This document shows positions 2,282 through 57,872 of a stretch of 64,000 nucleotides of DNA, in pieces (position 1 is the stretch's first letter; every line of letters begins with the position of its first letter). This DNA comes from a virus: positions 1-64,000 of the IMG/VR virus record IMGVR_UViG_3300023184_000105, one strand, 5' to 3'. The notes under the pieces were generated by a model. It was not told the origin of the DNA, ran no database searches, and saw nothing but the letters and a program-made list of their open reading frames with translations. The position numbers and the translations under genes were made by a program.

Positions 2282-3115
2282 TTAACTTCTATACAGTACC
2301 TTGTCAAATGATCCGAAGAAACTAGGATTATTGTTATTTGGGTCAATAGGTCCTTTAGCAGGGATGTATATAATTCGGATATAACTAAACACCCCATTGA
2401 AGTTCACATGGTCAATTCCGGTAAAACCGGTATATGCTCTATTTTCAATAGTATAATAACTACGGTCATCATTTGGAGTACTGTCCAGCGTTCCCTGTAT
2501 GAGTACTGATCCTTTGTATGCTGTCATATAGAGTGCAACTGTATGTAATGCCGGATTGCTATTGAATTCTGGACTAGCATATATGTTACCACTTTTATAT
2601 TCGTATAGGCCGGTACTACTGTTAAATGTAGGAAGGAAACTGGTAATTGAAGTACTATCTTTTAGCACTGGAAATACATCATTGGCTACATGCAGGGTAC
2701 CGTTTATTCCATAGTAGGTATTAGAATAAGCGGGAGTATAAGTACCGTCGTCCTTTCTTAATCTCACGCTGTATGTATAACTGGATTTATCTAAATCTAG
2801 TGTGTCGCTTTCGTTAAGTGTAAGCACAGCCATACCTTTAGTACTAGTAGTTTCAGGTAGTACATCAAGTATCTTCTCTACTAGCATACGTCGATTTATA
2901 GCATCAAACATAGTGAATATAACTGTTTGTGTAGTTGATACAGACACACGTTTTTGGTCGCTATTTTTAAATTGGATCCTAATTTGATTTTGGATCCCTT
3001 TTTGTATTGTTAGGTCTCGTTGATACATAACCTGATTCACTCCCCTGATTGTAGCGTCCAAATCTAGTGTTACATCGAGTTTGTTTGCGTATAAATAGAC
3101 TGGTAAAATTTGCAT
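2282..3115 (-). CDS. Probable virion structural protein with beta-sandwich N-terminus
   Basis: 277 residues, rich in beta-prone Ser/Thr/Tyr/Asn, no enzyme motif. Residues 35-75 (IQKGIQNQIRIQFKNSDQ and what follows) and a later SYTYSVRLRKDDGTYTPA strand pair look like the Ig-like domain of baseplate-periphery proteins such as BppU; this resemblance is by eye only. It is preceded by a late-type ATAAATA box 4 nt from the ATG. That supports late expression even though its downstream neighbours are replication genes. No Shine-Dalgarno is visible. I do not recognise a named family. Confidence 0.55.
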   Translation of the reverse strand: MQILPVYLYANKLDVTLDLDATIRGVNQVMYQRDLTIQKGIQNQIRIQFKNSDQKRVSVSTTQTVIFTMFDAINRRMLVEKILDVLPETTSTKGMAVLTLNESDTLDLDKSSYTYSVRLRKDDGTYTPAYSNTYYGINGTLHVANDVFPVLKDSTSITSFLPTFNSSTGLYEYKSGNIYASPEFNSNPALHTVALYMTAYKGSVLIQGTLDSTPNDDRSYYTIENRAYTGFTGIDHVNFNGVFSYIRIIYIPAKGPIDPNNNNPSFFGSFDKVLYRS

Positions 3116-3514: not shown

Positions 3515-4070
3515 GTTGTTCACATATTAGATTCAACTGTACTACAATAACACTAGCATAGGAAACAGCATGAGCCTTCTTAAAGAAATAGGAATCTTCA
3601 CTTTTAGTCCATATTTCATCATTGATGGCTTGGAAGCCTTGTTCCTTGCATATTGGGATCAAATGTTTCTTGCCCGGTCTAATCATAGCCAAGACCATTG
3701 CTAATTCAATAATAGTTGTAGGCTTTAATTCAGCAAGTAAGTTGTGATATCCGTTGATATGGAATAATTGATCACATATATCTTTTTCATACAATAAATC
3801 CCACAGTGGGTCAGTGTTAAGTAATTGAATTAAATGTTCTTCATCTTTGACACCATTATAAGCATTAACATTTAAGAAGTCGATCTTAAAATATCCCCTA
3901 GCCTCTGCAGATTTATAATCAATACTAGCAGTATCAGTTAACGGATTGTAAGGAATACTATGGCAATAGACTCCTGTATTATGTTTCTTTCCATCTTCAA
4001 GACATGCAGGTATATGCTTGATTATATCAAGCACCTGTTTTCTATCTTGAAAGTCGATATCAATATCCAT
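3495..4070 (-). CDS. Miniature DnaE-like protein (remnant of the Pol III alpha palm/fingers)
   Basis: 191 residues whose motifs occur in the same order as in bacterial Pol III alpha (DnaE). MDIDIDFQDRKQVLDII matches the PD-D-D-F-RD-V-E region that holds two catalytic aspartates. GKKHNTGV sits where DnaE has GKHAGGV. YFKIDFLNVNAY sits where DnaE has KFDFLGL, with D64 as the third catalytic Asp position. LAMIRPG matches the ALFRPGP motif, and KKAHAVSYASV matches NKSHSAAYALV. The PHP domain, much of the fingers, the beta-clamp and the tau-binding regions are all missing. Its start codon shares one base with the stop of the dCMP deaminase gene. Whether it polymerises DNA is unknown; a binding or inhibitory role is equally possible. 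Confidence 0.72.
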   Translation of the reverse strand: MDIDIDFQDRKQVLDIIKHIPACLEDGKKHNTGVYCHSIPYNPLTDTASIDYKSAEARGYFKIDFLNVNAYNGVKDEEHLIQLLNTDPLWDLLYEKDICDQLFHINGYHNLLAELKPTTIIELAMVLAMIRPGKKHLIPICKEQGFQAINDEIWTKSEDSYFFKKAHAVSYASVIVVQLNLICEQLSYGYS

Positions 4071-4597
4071 TATATTTGTTCAACCTTTACGCCCGAAGTT
4101 TCGAGAAACGTGACGCCACTAGTATCCCTATAAGCACTACGATATAGAACGTGCCCAATACCGCTTTGGTATATAAGTTTGGCACACTCCATACATGGAG
4201 CGTGGGTAATGAACATAGTAGCGCCCATACCGCTATTTGTACTTTTGGCCAATTTGGCAATCGCATTTGATTCAGCATGTAATACCTCTGGTTTAGTTTT
4301 TAGTTTATAACGACGAGTAGTTTCAAAACTTTCATTATCGTTCGCGACTACTACAGTTTCTTCAAATGGCCACTGTTCGTAAATCTCTTCGGGACTTAGC
4401 CAACCGCCAGCATCACTGCTCATGTATTCTTTGTTCTCGCAATTGTTATCCCAACCTGCAGGCATACCGTTGTAACCGTAACTGATAACGCTGTCATCTT
4501 TAACAATTACCGCCCCAACTTGTAATCGTTTAGCGTGGCTAAGTTCTGCGGTACGAGCCGCCCATGCCATGTATAAATCGATGAATTTTTGTTTCAA
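4070..4597 (-). CDS. cd: Deoxycytidylate (dCMP) deaminase
   Basis: 175 residues, close to T4 Cd (193). The zinc-dependent deaminase motifs are clear: H107-A-E109 in EVLHAESNAIAKL and P134-C-M-E-C138 in THAPCMECAKLIY. LQVGAVIVKDDSVISYGYNG is the conserved N-terminal core. The enzyme converts dCMP to dUMP and so feeds dTMP synthesis. The start is a TTG that overlaps the TGA of the upstream gene (TTGA). The next in-frame ATG, at residue 10, would truncate the first helix, so I keep the TTG. It is part of a coupled operon with the DNA glycosylase and the DnaE-like gene. Confidence 0.93.
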   Translation of the reverse strand: MKQKFIDLYMAWAARTAELSHAKRLQVGAVIVKDDSVISYGYNGMPAGWDNNCENKEYMSSDAGGWLSPEEIYEQWPFEETVVVANDNESFETTRRYKLKTKPEVLHAESNAIAKLAKSTNSGMGATMFITHAPCMECAKLIYQSGIGHVLYRSAYRDTSGVTFLETSGVKVEQI

Positions 4598-4782
4598 TTG
4601 ACTGTCTCTGTAAATCGTTCTAGAAAACTTTCAACATAACAACTATAGGTATTCTCACCATTGCTATCATTGCAATAGTGTACCCAAGTATGTCCGTCAT
4701 CCATTTCAATAGTATTTAAAACTCGAAATACTTCGTGACTACCGTGTCCTGTCCATTTACTTCCATATTTTGGTATCTTCAT
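4594..4782 (-). CDS. Small protein of unknown function (SH3-like by appearance)
   Basis: 62 residues: IPKYGSKWTGHGSHEVFRVL, then HTWVHYCNDSNGENTYSCYV. The alternating hydrophobic pattern and the W-V-H-Y strand look like the short beta-barrel proteins often found in phage genomes. It overlaps both neighbours by 4 nt (ATGA upstream, TTGA downstream), so it is translated in step with the nucleotidyltransferase and the deaminase. No catalytic residues are apparent. Confidence 0.7.
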   Translation of the reverse strand: MKIPKYGSKWTGHGSHEVFRVLNTIEMDDGHTWVHYCNDSNGENTYSCYVESFLERFTETVN

Positions 4783-5543
4783 TCTGTTCTCCTCTCAATA
4801 TCATCTTCAACGCAATGTTCACCGTACTGCACTTCTACAATACGACACGGTATGTTATATGGGTTAGTTAATTGATGCCAGTAATTCATGTCAACATGAT
4901 ATGATTGGTGTTGAGATAGAGTTAAGGTCATTGGATAACTGTTATCAGGCAGCATTGTATTAACATCACATTTGCCCTCTGTAACCAACCAGTATTCATT
5001 ACGTTTAAAATGTTTCTGCATACTTAAACTTTTACCCGGCTCTACAGTTAATTCTTTAACCTTACATCCTGTTACATCATGTAGTATACGATAATACCCC
5101 CACGGGCGCAATGTCTTTGGCGCCTTCCACTCTTCAAGAATCCAACTACTGCTGTTAACTTTATATTCTCCGCCAACGCCGAATACAAACTCTAGTTTAT
5201 CGTCTACTAGGCCCATCTCCGGTATATTCTCTTTAGTACGATCCCCGCCGTTGGCAAAAATTATTGTTGCATTGGGATACATAGCCCTAACTCCAGTAAT
5301 AGTATTTTTACTACTATTATCTGCATCAGGATAACATACAACTTTATCTACAACTTTTAATGATTCTATAATACGGAGACGTTCGTATTCGTCCATAAAA
5401 GATTTTCTCTTTTTACGGACTAACCACTCGTCCGTGTTAATACCAACGATTAACATATCACCTAGTTTACGGGCCGCTTCAAAGTAAGCAATATGTCCAC
5501 TATGCAAAGGGTCAAAGCCACCAGTGACTAGTACTATTTTCAC
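4779..5543 (-). CDS. Fused nucleotidyltransferase and sugar-phosphate-isomerase-type cupin
   Basis: 254 residues in two domains. Residues 1-130 are a cytidylyltransferase-fold domain: VTGGFDPLHSGHIAYF carries the H14-x-G-H17 nucleotide-binding motif, with INTDEW and a late IIFANGGDRT, as in RfaE2, TagD and related enzymes. Residues 143-254 are a cupin like the C-terminal part of ManC or type II phosphomannose isomerase: LRPWGYYRIL, VKELTVEPGKSLSMQKH, EYWLVTEGK, YWHQLTNP and EVQYGEHCVEDDI. The pair suggests activation of a sugar or polyol phosphate. The start is GTG, overlapping the upstream TGA as GTGA. A glycosyltransferase lies at 33151-33807, but a link is only inferred. Confidence 0.85.
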   Translation of the reverse strand: MKIVLVTGGFDPLHSGHIAYFEAARKLGDMLIVGINTDEWLVRKKRKSFMDEYERLRIIESLKVVDKVVCYPDADNSSKNTITGVRAMYPNATIIFANGGDRTKENIPEMGLVDDKLEFVFGVGGEYKVNSSSWILEEWKAPKTLRPWGYYRILHDVTGCKVKELTVEPGKSLSMQKHFKRNEYWLVTEGKCDVNTMLPDNSYPMTLTLSQHQSYHVDMNYWHQLTNPYNIPCRIVEVQYGEHCVEDDIERRTE

Positions 5544-20371: not shown

Positions 20372-20378
20372 TACTTAT
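20372..20378 (-). promoter_or_regulatory. Late promoter-like box ATAAGTA, 5 nt from gp16 ATG
   Basis: ATAAGTA-ATGTT-ATG on the minus strand, overlapping the TAA stop of gene 4. One mismatch to the motif, but the spacing is the same as in the perfect sites. Confidence 0.45.
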
Positions 20379-20818
20379 TTCATTTTTTTAGTGTTGGAAA
20401 AAATATCGTGTTCGTTGATAACTCTAAACTTTAATCCCTGCTGTTGAGCCCATTTATTTGCTGCTGCCCATTTAGCCATATTCTTTACGTACTGTGCTTG
20501 ATTGTAAGGGTTTTTTCCTACTTTTTCTATCAGCATTTGATTAGCAGGTTTAATCTCTATAAGTTCAGCATGTTTTTTCATATTCTTATCAATGTAATGA
20601 ATTAAAAAATCAGGAACATACACTGTTGGCTTGCCTGTTAGTGGATCCCTGTAGGGTATTTTTACAGGTTCACTTGCCCAATTTTGTATACTAGGGTTGT
20701 TATCGCAAAACATACAAAAAGTTGTTTCCCAACTACTACGACAATAGGGAGGTTTAGTTCCAACATATTTTTCAGGATTTTTTACCTGATAGATACTTTG
20801 GGCAAATTTTAAACTCAT
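20375..20818 (-). CDS. 4: Head-completion protein gp4 (PD-(D/E)xK nuclease fold)
   Basis: 147 residues from an ATG at 20818 that overlaps the peptidase stop as ATGA; T4 gp4 is about 150. An in-frame ATG 21 nt further upstream is possible but lies inside the peptidase gene. KNPEKYVGTKPPYCRSSWET, then WASEPVKIPYRDPLTGKPTV, VPDFLI and LIEIKPANQ give the PD-(D/E)xK arrangement of gp4-type head-completion proteins. It seals or trims packaged heads before tail joining. It is immediately upstream of the terminase small subunit gene, as expected for a packaging block. Confidence 0.85.
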   Translation of the reverse strand: MSLKFAQSIYQVKNPEKYVGTKPPYCRSSWETTFCMFCDNNPSIQNWASEPVKIPYRDPLTGKPTVYVPDFLIHYIDKNMKKHAELIEIKPANQMLIEKVGKNPYNQAQYVKNMAKWAAANKWAQQQGLKFRVINEHDIFSNTKKMK

Positions 20819-22089
20819 AGTGTTTTTGTTCGCGGCCAAACTTGTCCAGAGACAGGTCTTTTATCAAATTTATGATTAGGGAATACACTTCCGGATGTTA
20901 GACGTAATCCGTTTTTCATATATTGAAAAACTTTGTTACCCACTGGGGGTCCTAATCCAGTAACCGCATCCCAATTTGTAGTACCAGCATATCCATCAGT
21001 TATTAGTGTGTTGTTGGTACCAACAATAATATCGTAAAATGAACCTTTGTGATTGTAAAATAATGCATTGTATTCAGCAGACGATCGTTGCTTTCCTGTT
21101 ATTGCTTGTATCCTTGCGATCATACCGGCCATAACTGGTGCTGATGCACTTGTTCCTGTCATGGAATACCAAGTGCTATCCATGCGTACTAAATAACCAT
21201 TCATAGGAGCAGATATATCAGGAACCCCTCTCATAGTTAATGCTGTTGGACTACCTGTCACATTATTAATAATTGGTGTATAATATAAACCAGATTGCCA
21301 ACTAGGTGCAGAAAAATGACCACTCACGCCACCACCTCCACCCCAGGTAGAATTATTATCTCTATTATCATCAGTTTCAGATGATCGTGTTAATTGATCA
21401 ACATTTAAAATAAGTTTTGTTCCACCTACTGAAATAACTTGAGGACTACCTCCAGGATATGCTACTCGTGCAACTGTTTCACTTCCAAATGTTGAACCAG
21501 AGTCACCGGATGATATACAGACTGCCATCTTAGCATTAGTTGCTGGTGTTAATAATAAAGATTCAAAATAATCTAAGTTGGCGCCGCTAAGAGTTGCTTC
21601 GCCCGACGGATATCCATAACTTATACTGATAATATGACAGCCATCAGATGTTGCTCGTTGAATGGTGCTTACAAAATTAGCCCCAAAATATATGGTAATA
21701 TTTGCGGCCGGCACCATTGTGGCAATACAATATATATCAAGTATATTTTCACCATTAGCATTATTAGGATCATCTGAAAATAATCCACTTTTGCCATCTA
21801 ATAAAACTGTGTTAATTGTAGGTGAAGTAGTGCCTACAGGAAGCAGTCCGTTTGACACCATGTCATTAATCATAAAATCAAGATCGCCTTGTAAAAAGCC
21901 GCCGCCTAAAGGAGCAATAATTCCAATTTTAACTCCGGCTCCGTCATGGTAAGGCAAATTATAAGCCGATGCAACCTGTGGCGGAGTGAGGTATCCGGAA
22001 CTTGGATATGCTAATGCTGTGATGTCGTCGGATAATTTTAATATTTCTAAATTAGCGGAAACGACAGGAGTATCATGTATTTCAGACAT
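20815..22089 (-). CDS. S53 family (sedolisin/kumamolisin) serine-carboxyl peptidase
   Basis: 424 residues with the complete sedolisin signature. E114-x3-D118 is in NGENILDIY, the oxyanion Asp is D196 in CISSGDSGS, and the nucleophile is S314 in MTGTSASAPVMAG. A calcium-site region is seen in YAGTTNWDAVTGLGPP (370s). The protein begins at the mature-enzyme start (LTPPQVASAYNLP) and has no room for the roughly 180-residue activation prodomain. No signal peptide is visible. The C-terminal 35 residues (LRLTSGSVF, then SGQVWPR) are an extension. It lies 1 nt after a collagen-like fibre gene and overlaps gp4, so it is made with virion proteins. Substrate unknown. Confidence 0.9.
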   Translation of the reverse strand: MSEIHDTPVVSANLEILKLSDDITALAYPSSGYLTPPQVASAYNLPYHDGAGVKIGIIAPLGGGFLQGDLDFMINDMVSNGLLPVGTTSPTINTVLLDGKSGLFSDDPNNANGENILDIYCIATMVPAANITIYFGANFVSTIQRATSDGCHIISISYGYPSGEATLSGANLDYFESLLLTPATNAKMAVCISSGDSGSTFGSETVARVAYPGGSPQVISVGGTKLILNVDQLTRSSETDDNRDNNSTWGGGGGVSGHFSAPSWQSGLYYTPIINNVTGSPTALTMRGVPDISAPMNGYLVRMDSTWYSMTGTSASAPVMAGMIARIQAITGKQRSSAEYNALFYNHKGSFYDIIVGTNNTLITDGYAGTTNWDAVTGLGPPVGNKVFQYMKNGLRLTSGSVFPNHKFDKRPVSGQVWPRTKTL

Positions 22090-22090
22090 G

Positions 22091-22861
22091 TTATGCTTCT
22101 AATTGTAAAAGTGTTAGCGTAACTGTTACAGCCTGTTGTCCTGCAGATAAATTAGTTACTGCGGCATATATTGTTGAAGTTGTAGTTGTATCATCATTAA
22201 ATCCAATTACCCCCGGGGTCATTAATACCGTTTGCGCCCCTGATGTGATTACTTCGGCTATGACACCTGAACCCGGAGTAGGATCGGTAGTTTGTGCTCT
22301 TGAACTATCGCTAGTTCTTGCTGCACTAGTTGTATATAATCTGACCCAGGCGTCGATGCTTGTAGATATTTTTAACAATGCATAAGATTTAAATCCTGTA
22401 AAATAAGTAGTTCCAGTAGTTCCGGGATAAAGAGATCCGGTCATAGCAACATGAGTTGTTCTTGAATACCCACCACCTGCGCTTGCACTGATGGTACCAT
22501 CGCCGGTGATTGACACACCACTACCAATTTTAACTCCGCCTAATACTGAGGCCGTTGCTGTGGTTAGTGTGTAAGTACCTCCAGTACTAGTGCCAGCACT
22601 ACCTGTATAACCTACAGTACCAGTTGATCCTGTATAACCTACAGTACCAGTTGATCCTGTATAACCTGTATAACCTTGGGTACCAGTTGACCCCGTATAA
22701 CCAACACTTGCACTGCCTGTATATCCAACTGCGCCATCTGATGTTAGTTTACTACGTAAATCCTGATACGAATATCTTCGTGTAGCACCGTTATTAATTA
22801 CAACAAATGTTGTAGTAGATATAATTGATGATGTAGTAGTTAATTGTGTAATATTTGGCAT
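22091..22861 (-). CDS. Short fibre protein with collagen-like GYTGS repeats
   Basis: 256 residues. Residues about 46-94 consist of GYTGS/GTQ/GTV triplets in G-x-y register, the pattern of phage collagen-like trimerising stalks. Residues 1-40 are Ser/Thr-rich and may dock to the virion. The C-terminal domain (TYFTGFKSYALLKISTSIDA, RLYTTSAARTSDSSR, AVTVTLTLLQLEA) is beta-rich and probably the tip. It lies 5 nt downstream of the 160-residue gene and 1 nt upstream of the S53 peptidase. That makes a fibre-plus-protease pair plausible, though this is inferred from adjacency only. Confidence 0.8.
   Translation of the reverse strand: MPNITQLTTTSSIISTTTFVVINNGATRRYSYQDLRSKLTSDGAVGYTGSASVGYTGSTGTQGYTGYTGSTGTVGYTGSTGTVGYTGSAGTSTGGTYTLTTATASVLGGVKIGSGVSITGDGTISASAGGGYSRTTHVAMTGSLYPGTTGTTYFTGFKSYALLKISTSIDAWVRLYTTSAARTSDSSRAQTTDPTPGSGVIAEVITSGAQTVLMTPGVIGFNDDTTTTSTIYAAVTNLSAGQQAVTVTLTLLQLEA
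22585..22725. repeat. Collagen-like coding repeat
   Basis: Near-identical units reading GTACCAGTTGATCCTG then TATAACCTACA on the plus strand recur with 27-nt spacing. They encode the GYTGSTGTV units of the fibre stalk and are likely to vary in number. Confidence 0.8.
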
Positions 22862-22866
22862 GTTAA

Positions 22867-23349
22867 TTATCCCGTTGTTAAAATTTCTCCAAACTCATCT
22901 GTTATTGTTTCCGAATTTTCATCATACAAAATAATTGGATTAATAGGGGGAGGAGTAGGAGTAGTTATGGCAAAGCCATCTATGATATTTCTTTGTACTT
23001 GAGGATTAGGTTTAAATGTTTGAGCATAACCTAATGAACTTGTTTTAAATCTATTATAATTTAGTATTTCAGATACAAGACCCGATAATTCAACATTAGT
23101 CAATCCTTTTAATGTGTCTAAAATTTGCATGGGATTATACCCATCTTGCTTAGACTGTGTGATAATGGTTATAGCAATTGACTCTGCTGCAACATCTCCA
23201 AAACCTCTGTTAACAAAATAGCCTTTCATAGCGGCCAATACTGTTGAACTAATTTCTATTGGAGATGTTTGATAATTATCAAATGCTTGTACTGTTGCAT
23301 TAGTTTCTGCTTTTTCGGCAGGCGGTACGTTAGAAAAAGTTTGAGACAT
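22867..23349 (-). CDS. Conserved virion structural protein, unknown position
   Basis: 160 residues. The helical core AAMKGYFVNRGFGDVAAESI, ITQSKQDGYNPMQILDTLKG and SGLVSEILNYNRFKTSSLGY looks like a protein I have met next to tail genes in other aquatic T4-like phages. The C-terminus is Pro/Ile-rich (TTPTPPPINPIILYDEN), as in many virion linker tails. It lies 2 nt downstream of the tube-fold gene and 5 nt upstream of the collagen-like fibre. No catalytic motif seen. Confidence 0.72.
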   Translation of the reverse strand: MSQTFSNVPPAEKAETNATVQAFDNYQTSPIEISSTVLAAMKGYFVNRGFGDVAAESIAITIITQSKQDGYNPMQILDTLKGLTNVELSGLVSEILNYNRFKTSSLGYAQTFKPNPQVQRNIIDGFAITTPTPPPINPIILYDENSETITDEFGEILTTG

Positions 23350-28300: not shown

Positions 28301-28666
28301 ATGAAAAGGGCAGTAAAAAGGGCGCAAATGAGAAATCTTTGTAAAGAATGTGGTCAAAGGCCAGTTGCTATTAACTATTATAAGGAAGGTAAAGCATTTT
28401 ATAGATCAAAATGTGATCATTGTGCTGGCCAACGCAAAGAAGGAATTCCTTTGTGGAAAAAAGCAGGCTATAAAAAGAAAACCACATGCGATAAATGCGG
28501 TTTTCTTTCTAAATATACAGAACAGTTTAATGTATTTTATATTGATGGAAATCCGTCAAATTGTAAATATAGTAATCTTAAAACCGTATGTGCTAACTGT
28601 CAGAGAATTTTACATAAACTTAAACTACCTTGGCGACAAGGGGATCTTGTTCCTGATCAATTATGA
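28301..28666 (+). CDS. Zinc-ribbon protein resembling a degenerate HNH nuclease
   Basis: 121 residues on the plus strand, basic. Two CxxC pairs precede the core: NLCKECGQRP and KCDHCAGQ, then TTCDKCGFLS. The HNH-like segment FNVFYIDGNPSNCKYSNLKT then VCANCQRIL keeps the asparagines and the last CxxC, but the two catalytic histidines are replaced (Y and Q). It is probably a zinc-binding DNA protein rather than an active nuclease. It faces away from gp18, and its last 47 nt overlap gene 1 on the other strand. A TTAAATA sequence lies 3 nt before the ATG. Confidence 0.7.
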   Translation: MKRAVKRAQMRNLCKECGQRPVAINYYKEGKAFYRSKCDHCAGQRKEGIPLWKKAGYKKKTTCDKCGFLSKYTEQFNVFYIDGNPSNCKYSNLKTVCANCQRILHKLKLPWRQGDLVPDQL

Positions 28667-57242: not shown

Positions 57243-57872
57243 TTATTTTAGACCTTTAATAATATTCAAGAGAGACTCTTGAAGATATTTCTGGGCCTTT
57301 GGATCTTCTTTTACTTCTCTAGCAACATTGAATGCACGATTTCCGCCTCGGCTGTTCATGAGATGCTCATAAACAGGAGTAGGATATGCACCAGGTGCGC
57401 TAGGTTGTGCAACTACATCTACTGTGATTATCTCAAAATCGGATACTTTGCCAGACATTTCATCAACGTTGCCGCTGCCTCTACTACTGACACCTAGTTT
57501 CACTCCGCTTTCAAGCATAGTACGAATTAAGTTGCCCATTGGTGTTGGCAAAATTTTCATCTTGCCATAACCATTAGGACCTTCCATCCACATTTGAGTA
57601 ATCATATGGGATACACGGTCCAAATTTACTTTTAGATCATCCGGATGATCAACTTCACCTAATACAGAATAACCACTTTGTAGTTGATCATTTAGTGTTT
57701 TCACAGCACGTTCAATTTCGTCTACTGGATAGACACGTTGATTAGCATTGCGAATTCCACCTTGGATAGCAATACCTTTTAGATAAAGGCTTTTGCCATC
57801 CTTGTCATCCGACTCCATTACGATGCCGGATTGATCAAAACTTAGGTGTTCTCTTAGATAAGATACTTTCAT
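57243..57872 (-). CDS. 21: Prohead core protease gp21
   Basis: 209 residues (T4 gp21 212). The serine-protease fold of herpesvirus-assemblin type is shown by GIAIQGGIRNANQRVYPVDE, VLGEVDHPDDLKVNLDRVSH with H76, and LGVSSRGSGNV with the nucleophile at S129 or S130. VSDFEIITVDVVAQPSAPGA is the following strand. The enzyme cleaves gp22, gp23 and internal proteins after (L/I)-x-E and then itself. Gene order gp20-core-gp21-gp22-gp23 is that of T4. There is no strong ribosome binding site; it is probably coupled to the core gene 13 nt upstream. Confidence 0.92.
   Translation of the reverse strand: MKVSYLREHLSFDQSGIVMESDDKDGKSLYLKGIAIQGGIRNANQRVYPVDEIERAVKTLNDQLQSGYSVLGEVDHPDDLKVNLDRVSHMITQMWMEGPNGYGKMKILPTPMGNLIRTMLESGVKLGVSSRGSGNVDEMSGKVSDFEIITVDVVAQPSAPGAYPTPVYEHLMNSRGGNRAFNVAREVKEDPKAQKYLQESLLNIIKGLK

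Follow-up and report, generated by a model that had tools for sequence, protein, structure and literature searches.

Why would a T4-like phage keep a gene for a sedolisin-type peptidase among its structural genes, and what might the enzyme do there? The gene lies on the minus strand (20815..22089, 424 aa, ATG start) of the 64,000-nt stretch of viral DNA analysed here, called the window, which belongs to the 67.9-kb virus record of a T4-like freshwater phage. Genes of T4 type in that record encode TerL, gp4, tail tubes, portal gp20, gp21 (S77) and gp23, and others we take to be UvsX, gp32-like and sheath genes from their sequences and from their counterparts in relatives. TerL is nearest to that of the Arenbergviridae, namely the Pseudomonas phages PA5oct and MIJ3 (52%), in which the tail and packaging genes stand in a similar order but the fibre/protease insertion before gp4 is missing. 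No tRNA gene that might hint at the host was found in the window.

The peptidase gene is embedded in a compact run of minus-strand genes. Upstream, a 256-aa collagen-like fibre protein (22091..22861) combines a variable Gly-X-Y stem (22589..22732, residues 44-91, a sub-threshold match to Pfam PF01391) with a conserved tip domain of predicted beta-jelly-roll fold (22097..22495, residues ~123-255, phrog_15343), and is itself preceded by a 160-aa protein of the tail/neck module (22867..23349). Downstream, a gp4-like head-closure/completion gene (20375..20818, phrog_218, 2.7e-37) forms the right border of the insertion site with its ATG at 20818. The sequence-only reading had described a 1-nt gap to a collagen-like fibre gene, an ATGA overlap with gp4 and translation from a virion-module mRNA; the sequence confirms the 1-nt gap between the end of the fibre gene (22091) and the S53 ATG (...GAAGCATAACATGTCTG...) as well as the overlap of the S53 stop with the gp4 start (...ACACTATGAGTTTA...), and the shared mRNA is supported. 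A T4 late promoter (TATAAATA) at the S53 gene was considered and rejected, the one match in the window, fewer than expected by chance, lying at 3090. A second contig of the same phage encodes a 100% identical S53 protein and a fibre of 248 aa compared with 256 aa, a gap that is probably a difference in the number of collagen-like repeats. Between the genes for the sheath and for dNMP kinase, a small Cys-rich HNH-like ORF reads in the opposite direction (28301-28666, plus); it is kept at 85-87% in four other contigs (L083, L084, L090 and L091).

Homology of the peptidase unit and the catalytic residues assign the protein to peptidase family S53, the sedolisin/kumamolisin type. Residues 34-390 match kumamolisin with E=3.6e-38 (phmmer), identity to kumamolisin and kumamolisin-As being 30-37%, and the AlphaFold model (pLDDT 87.8, pTM 0.88) fits pro-kumamolisin at Z 46.6, with 361 residues aligned, and the mature kumamolisins at Z ~45 (334-361 residues aligned and Z 45-47 over all comparisons); this kinship is not chance. 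The likeness to these MEROPS S53 enzymes comprises the fold (Z ~46), the Glu-Asp-Asp-Ser set and the calcium-site Asp residues. Within the catalytic domain (20911..21990, minus strand, residues 34-393), E114 (codon 21748-21750), D118 (21736-21738), D196 (21502-21504) and S314 (21148-21150) align with kumamolisin E78, D82, D164 and S278, D196 being the oxyanion Asp, and Asp is present at the equivalents of both D316 and D338, a calcium site recognised by sequence only. The complete S53 peptidase and calcium-site-like end claimed beforehand were thereby borne out, as was the superposition on kumamolisin proposed as a check, whereas the Pfam profile search proposed alongside it gave a divided answer: the protein matched the subtilase-fold family PF00082 (E 8.6e-13), and no separate Pfam S53 model matched it. 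In NCBIfam all matches were below cut-off. Two residues of the kumamolisin network, Glu32 and Trp129, are Ala and Tyr here, so that the protein lacks this mark of the kumamolisin subgroup; because both are changed, the pH optimum is not to be taken from kumamolisin, and the suggested acid optimum cannot be claimed.

The enzyme further differs from kumamolisin in lacking the ~180-aa prodomain and a signal peptide, in carrying a C-terminal phage tail, and in being phage-encoded beside a fibre. Both absences had been noted from the sequence and hold up: the prodomain family PF09286, a usual companion that lies outside the family-defining peptidase unit, gave no match in Pfam, and no hydrophobic N-terminal segment was found (best 15-mer Kyte-Doolittle mean 0.74). 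The claim that the protein begins at the mature N-terminus has to be corrected. About 33 residues come first (21991..22089, minus strand, pLDDT 65-85), and residues 1-33 of the model superpose on pro-kumamolisin 157-188, the C-terminal linker of the prodomain, so that the protein extends somewhat beyond the mature N-terminus. Prodomain loss is real, and a linker remnant of ~33 aa is kept. At least 160 aa precede the catalytic domain in all 80 bacterial S53 relatives, which were picked by sequence pattern and are not a census. In a tree with these, the window protein groups with other phage sequences in a clade of 16 (support 1.0); no member has the prodomain, and each carries Ala, Ser or Gly where kumamolisin has Glu32. 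Some phage relatives have the prodomain (Pro-kumamolisin, PF09286; among them L086, L087, L118 and L143), and of the fibre-linked phage S53 proteins that have it, only L086 (Gln) lacks Glu32. In the prodomain-less clade the linker segment may occupy the cleft until it is removed; with Glu32 lost as well, this clade is a natural experiment on sedolisin folding and activation without a prodomain.

By its sequence, the window protein is apparently an intact protease. No viral relative whose sequence spans the catalytic E, D, D and S deviates at any of them (invariant in 50 sequences), and the S53 gene is under purifying selection (dN/dS 0.22-0.33), its rate lying above those of gp4 (0.07) and the tail tube (0.14) and being similar to or below that of the fibre (0.28-0.46). 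It could nevertheless be argued that the S53 fold merely forms a receptor-binding head whose proteolytic activity goes unused, in line with its adhesin-like position at the fibre, the missing prodomain and the replacement of Glu32 and Trp129. We consider such a pseudo-enzyme adhesin very unlikely, as the four catalytic residues stay invariant across 30-60% identity, many phage relatives keep the prodomain, and the S8 alleles found at the same site, described below, have active-site motifs of their own.

To place the protein among viruses, its family was followed through deposited and environmental genomes. None of the 50,697 deposited phage genomes in INPHARED yielded an S53 protein even at E 10, with weak subtilase matches only, and PHROGs offered just a weak S8-type protease match for the window protein; the gene is thus not already assigned in known phages, which would have counted against the sequence-only reading. 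Scans of IMG/VR gave 57 S53 loci, which form 38 clusters at 90% identity. In all 23 clusters of the fibre-linked type the upstream gene ends in the tip domain of ~132 aa, 1-2 aa before the stop (in the window fibre 1 aa, iE 5.3e-54), with a usual spacing of 1 nt from this stop to the S53 start; upstream of the 15 other clusters the tip is absent. The fibre part ahead of the tip ranges from about 60 to >1000 aa across the 23 clusters, and the surrounding genes vary. The fibre-linked S53 proteins in turn end in RPxSGxx[WYF]PR, usually after a second, weaker copy. In the window this tail comprises residues 394-424 (20818..20910, minus strand), a double RPxSGxxxP motif ending RPVSGQVWPRTKTL that forms a low-confidence, unstructured part of the AlphaFold model. 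Tip and tail are both present in 20 of the 38 clusters and both absent in 15, while the three with a tip and no detected tail comprise one at a contig end with the motif visible (L085) and two with interrupted frames (L084 and L121). When this set is taken together with the second set of tip-bearing genes below, 78 of the 83 intact genes that immediately follow a tip have the tail, compared with 3 of 1366 other ORFs, all three of them antisense and probably spurious. The tip fold has no clear solved relative, the best comparison (Z 7.7) reflecting a common jelly-roll arrangement. This pattern of sequences argues that the window S53 belongs to a two-gene module, consisting of a tip-bearing fibre and a tail-bearing protease, that moves between genome positions.

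The same pairing bears on whether the enzyme might instead act unattached in the infected cell, at lysis or against host defence proteins. T4-type phages make intracellular effectors, and the missing signal peptide would suit a protease of this sort. The tail, however, is conserved and paired with the fibre tip, the gene sits within a structural gene run, and no linkage to lysis or defence genes was seen for the fibre-linked S53 genes, so that we give very little credence to a free protease; the lysis-stage role suggested by the sequence-only reading is without support.

A subtilisin counterpart of the module exists in cyanophages. The window fibre protein matches 40 deposited records, nearly all from Synechococcus phages, where tip-bearing genes are often annotated as tail-fibre-like; in S-CREM1, S-CAM1, S-RSM4 and S-WAM2 the gene after the tip encodes an S8 subtilase with a like tail. 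The subtilisin-like serine proteases of S-CREM1, S-WAM2, S-RSM4 and S-H38 hence resemble the window S53 in standing behind a same-tip fibre gene and in having the same kind of tail, but they belong to family S8 and have an I9-like N-terminal segment that is sub-threshold in Pfam. In the second set, which came from a scan with the tip domain, 82 of the 83 downstream genes examined encode subtilisin-fold proteases (80 S8 and 2 S53), the exception being ACG-2014i, where a non-protease follows the tip gene; this set contains six S8 duplicates scored under another name and 21 genes cut by a contig end. When deposited phage proteins were searched with the tail, all significant matches were S8 proteases, and Enterococcus matches at E ~2 or more were noise. 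An HMM made from 47 S8 tails only recovered 22 S53 C-termini among 1067 (E 1e-11 to 0.015), the window tail at 1.3e-11, with no non-S53 match below 0.4 among the 1067; judged by this profile, the S8 and S53 tails are homologous. The pairing of tip and tail could be simple linkage of neighbouring genes, a reading that is disfavoured because two different protease families share the tails. P-SSM2 provides a contrast: there the S8 gene stands behind a collagen-like fibre that ends differently and has no tip, and the S8 protein lacks the tail.

Whether the two families also alternate at one place was addressed with relatives fetched by the border genes, the 160-aa gene (22867-23349) and gp4. Among 103 distinct contigs with both, the site is empty in 92, where the two border genes abut, and holds fibre plus S53 in seven (one being the other contig of the window phage), fibre plus S8 in two, and another fibre in two. 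The S8 proteins of L317 and L241 have the tail and active-site motifs, with ~300 aa more beyond the tail in L241, and an I9 prodomain is sub-threshold in Pfam. As far as these sequences indicate, S53 and S8 are exchanged at a single genome site while tip and tail are kept. The gene in place of the 160-aa protein in the Arenbergviridae (MIJ3_00040) has no detectable similarity to it, and the empty-site argument therefore rests on IMG/VR contigs and not on MIJ3. The other-fibre contigs, L237 and L238 (both 3553-4995), encode a 480-aa fibre that shares its N-terminus with the others at this site but has an unrelated C-terminus, and no protease accompanies it.

These alleles also speak to a role in the capsid pathway. 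The position of the S53 gene among head-completion genes might suggest a second prohead or tail maturation protease; such a role is extremely improbable in our view, given the 92 empty sites and a gp21 prohead protease (S77) gene already present in the window (57243..57872, minus strand; PF03420, 2.1e-25; phrog_207). With gp21 accounted for, the identity of the S53 protein as the prohead protease was rejected, and no PF03420 homology was found in it by Pfam.

The border protein itself changes with the occupancy of the site. Wherever the site is occupied (11 contigs), its homologues measure 153-190 aa; at empty sites they measure 119-130 aa, except in five contigs (L257, L299, L325, L361 and L250) in which the ORF is 402-720 aa long; in some relatives the long ORFs are apparently joined to the upstream tail-tube-like gene. 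The difference lies in a C-terminal extension of ~37 aa (22870-22980, minus strand, DENSETITDEFGEILTTG; pattern DENGExITDExGExLTTE) that was seen only in contigs where the next gene encodes a fibre; the 190-aa homologue of L241 has it twice. The fibre N-terminus at this site is conserved as well (MPxITQL...TFVVxNNG...), and the extension possibly anchors it.

Taken together, we consider it rather probable that the S53 protein is a virion protease tethered to the fibre tip, with an exchangeable protease domain. The 1-nt gap speaks for translational coupling of the S53 gene to the adjacent fibre gene; the S53 tail would bind the tip domain during assembly, and the fibre would be attached to the tail or neck through its own N-terminus and the extension of the 160-aa protein. 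The displayed protease, probably virion-borne by these sequence features, might then cut a host surface protein, for example an S-layer, outer-membrane or pilus protein, and so help the phage adsorb or reach its receptor, much as tailspike depolymerases do by acting on polysaccharides; a swapped protease domain would mean a different substrate. For the wider proposal, that T4-like phages use a jelly-roll tip to capture any protease with an RPxSGxxYPR tail, and that S8 and S53 domains, with or without prodomain, are cassette-swapped at one locus to change the host surface protein that is cut, we see about even chances. Against the virion reading counts the text of the S-CREM1 virion paper, which gives 14 proteins and names no peptidase.

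The enzyme could alternatively serve the fibre itself, as a maturation protease or chaperone that binds the tip through its tail, trims or folds the fibre and need not remain on the virion. Its place directly downstream, at 1-nt spacing, recalls fibre-assembly helper genes such as T4 gp38 and gp57A, and the kumamolisin family includes a collagen cleaver, kumamolisin-As, while the window fibre is collagen-like. Yet many partner fibres have no collagen stretch (e.g. L086, L090, L093 and L096), for which reason cleavage of the phage's own collagen was ruled out as the general function; it is the tip that is conserved, and this invariably forms the extreme C-terminal end of the fibre gene; and a fixed cleavage site is hard to square with a swap between families of differing specificity. 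We therefore regard fibre maturation as unlikely, though worth keeping in mind.

The enzymes known from tailed-phage virions mostly cleave sugars and peptidoglycan. With tailspike depolymerases and the T4-type gp38 adhesin, too, an enzyme or adhesin sits at the tail-fibre tip, acting on or binding glycans or receptors, whereas the cargo proposed here would be a protease that forms its own polypeptide and bears the shared tail motif. The S53-like subtilases of Barrevirus and Homavirus share the viral S53 fold (TM 0.77 and 0.71) but are larger proteins of eukaryotic giant viruses with no fibre-tip link shown. Besides these giant-virus proteins, what is already known are single S8 members annotated as subtilisin-like proteases in GenBank. 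Full-text literature searches turned up nothing published on a phage S53 or a cyanophage fibre/subtilisin pair, nor a description in the papers searched of what the cyanophage proteases do, and Sullivan 2010 (PMC3037559) mentions only clusters of S8 peptidases along with peptidase genes that are syntenic and diverged. The sources searched thus appear to contain no description of a tailed-phage S53, of the tip/tail pairing or of the exchange.

With at least 596 IMG/VR stretches encoding the tip domain, fibre-linked proteases that carry a short, portable tail for attachment seem to form a widespread class, which would give a testable reason for the cyanophage subtilisins near fibre genes. The appearance of S53 and S8 as alternatives in one slot suggests that the proteases which such viruses carry on a fibre tip are interchangeable, and the tail/tip pair could serve as a natural docking tag.

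Other viral S53 proteins are built differently. Another group of prodomain-less phage S53 proteins (L102-L106, L114 and L130) end in a W-rich repeat (..VWTKVNSTTWKQTF) in place of the PR tail, with no tip gene upstream, and this repeat is perhaps another docking tail. In further phage or virus contigs (L088, L128 and L132-L139) the S53 proteins combine Glu32 with an N-terminal part that is only short; several of them carry PT-rich tails, and in L088 an Amidase_2 gene follows. A 1430-aa phage protein in L118 (9545-13837) joins a prodomain and an S53 domain to several Ig-like domains.
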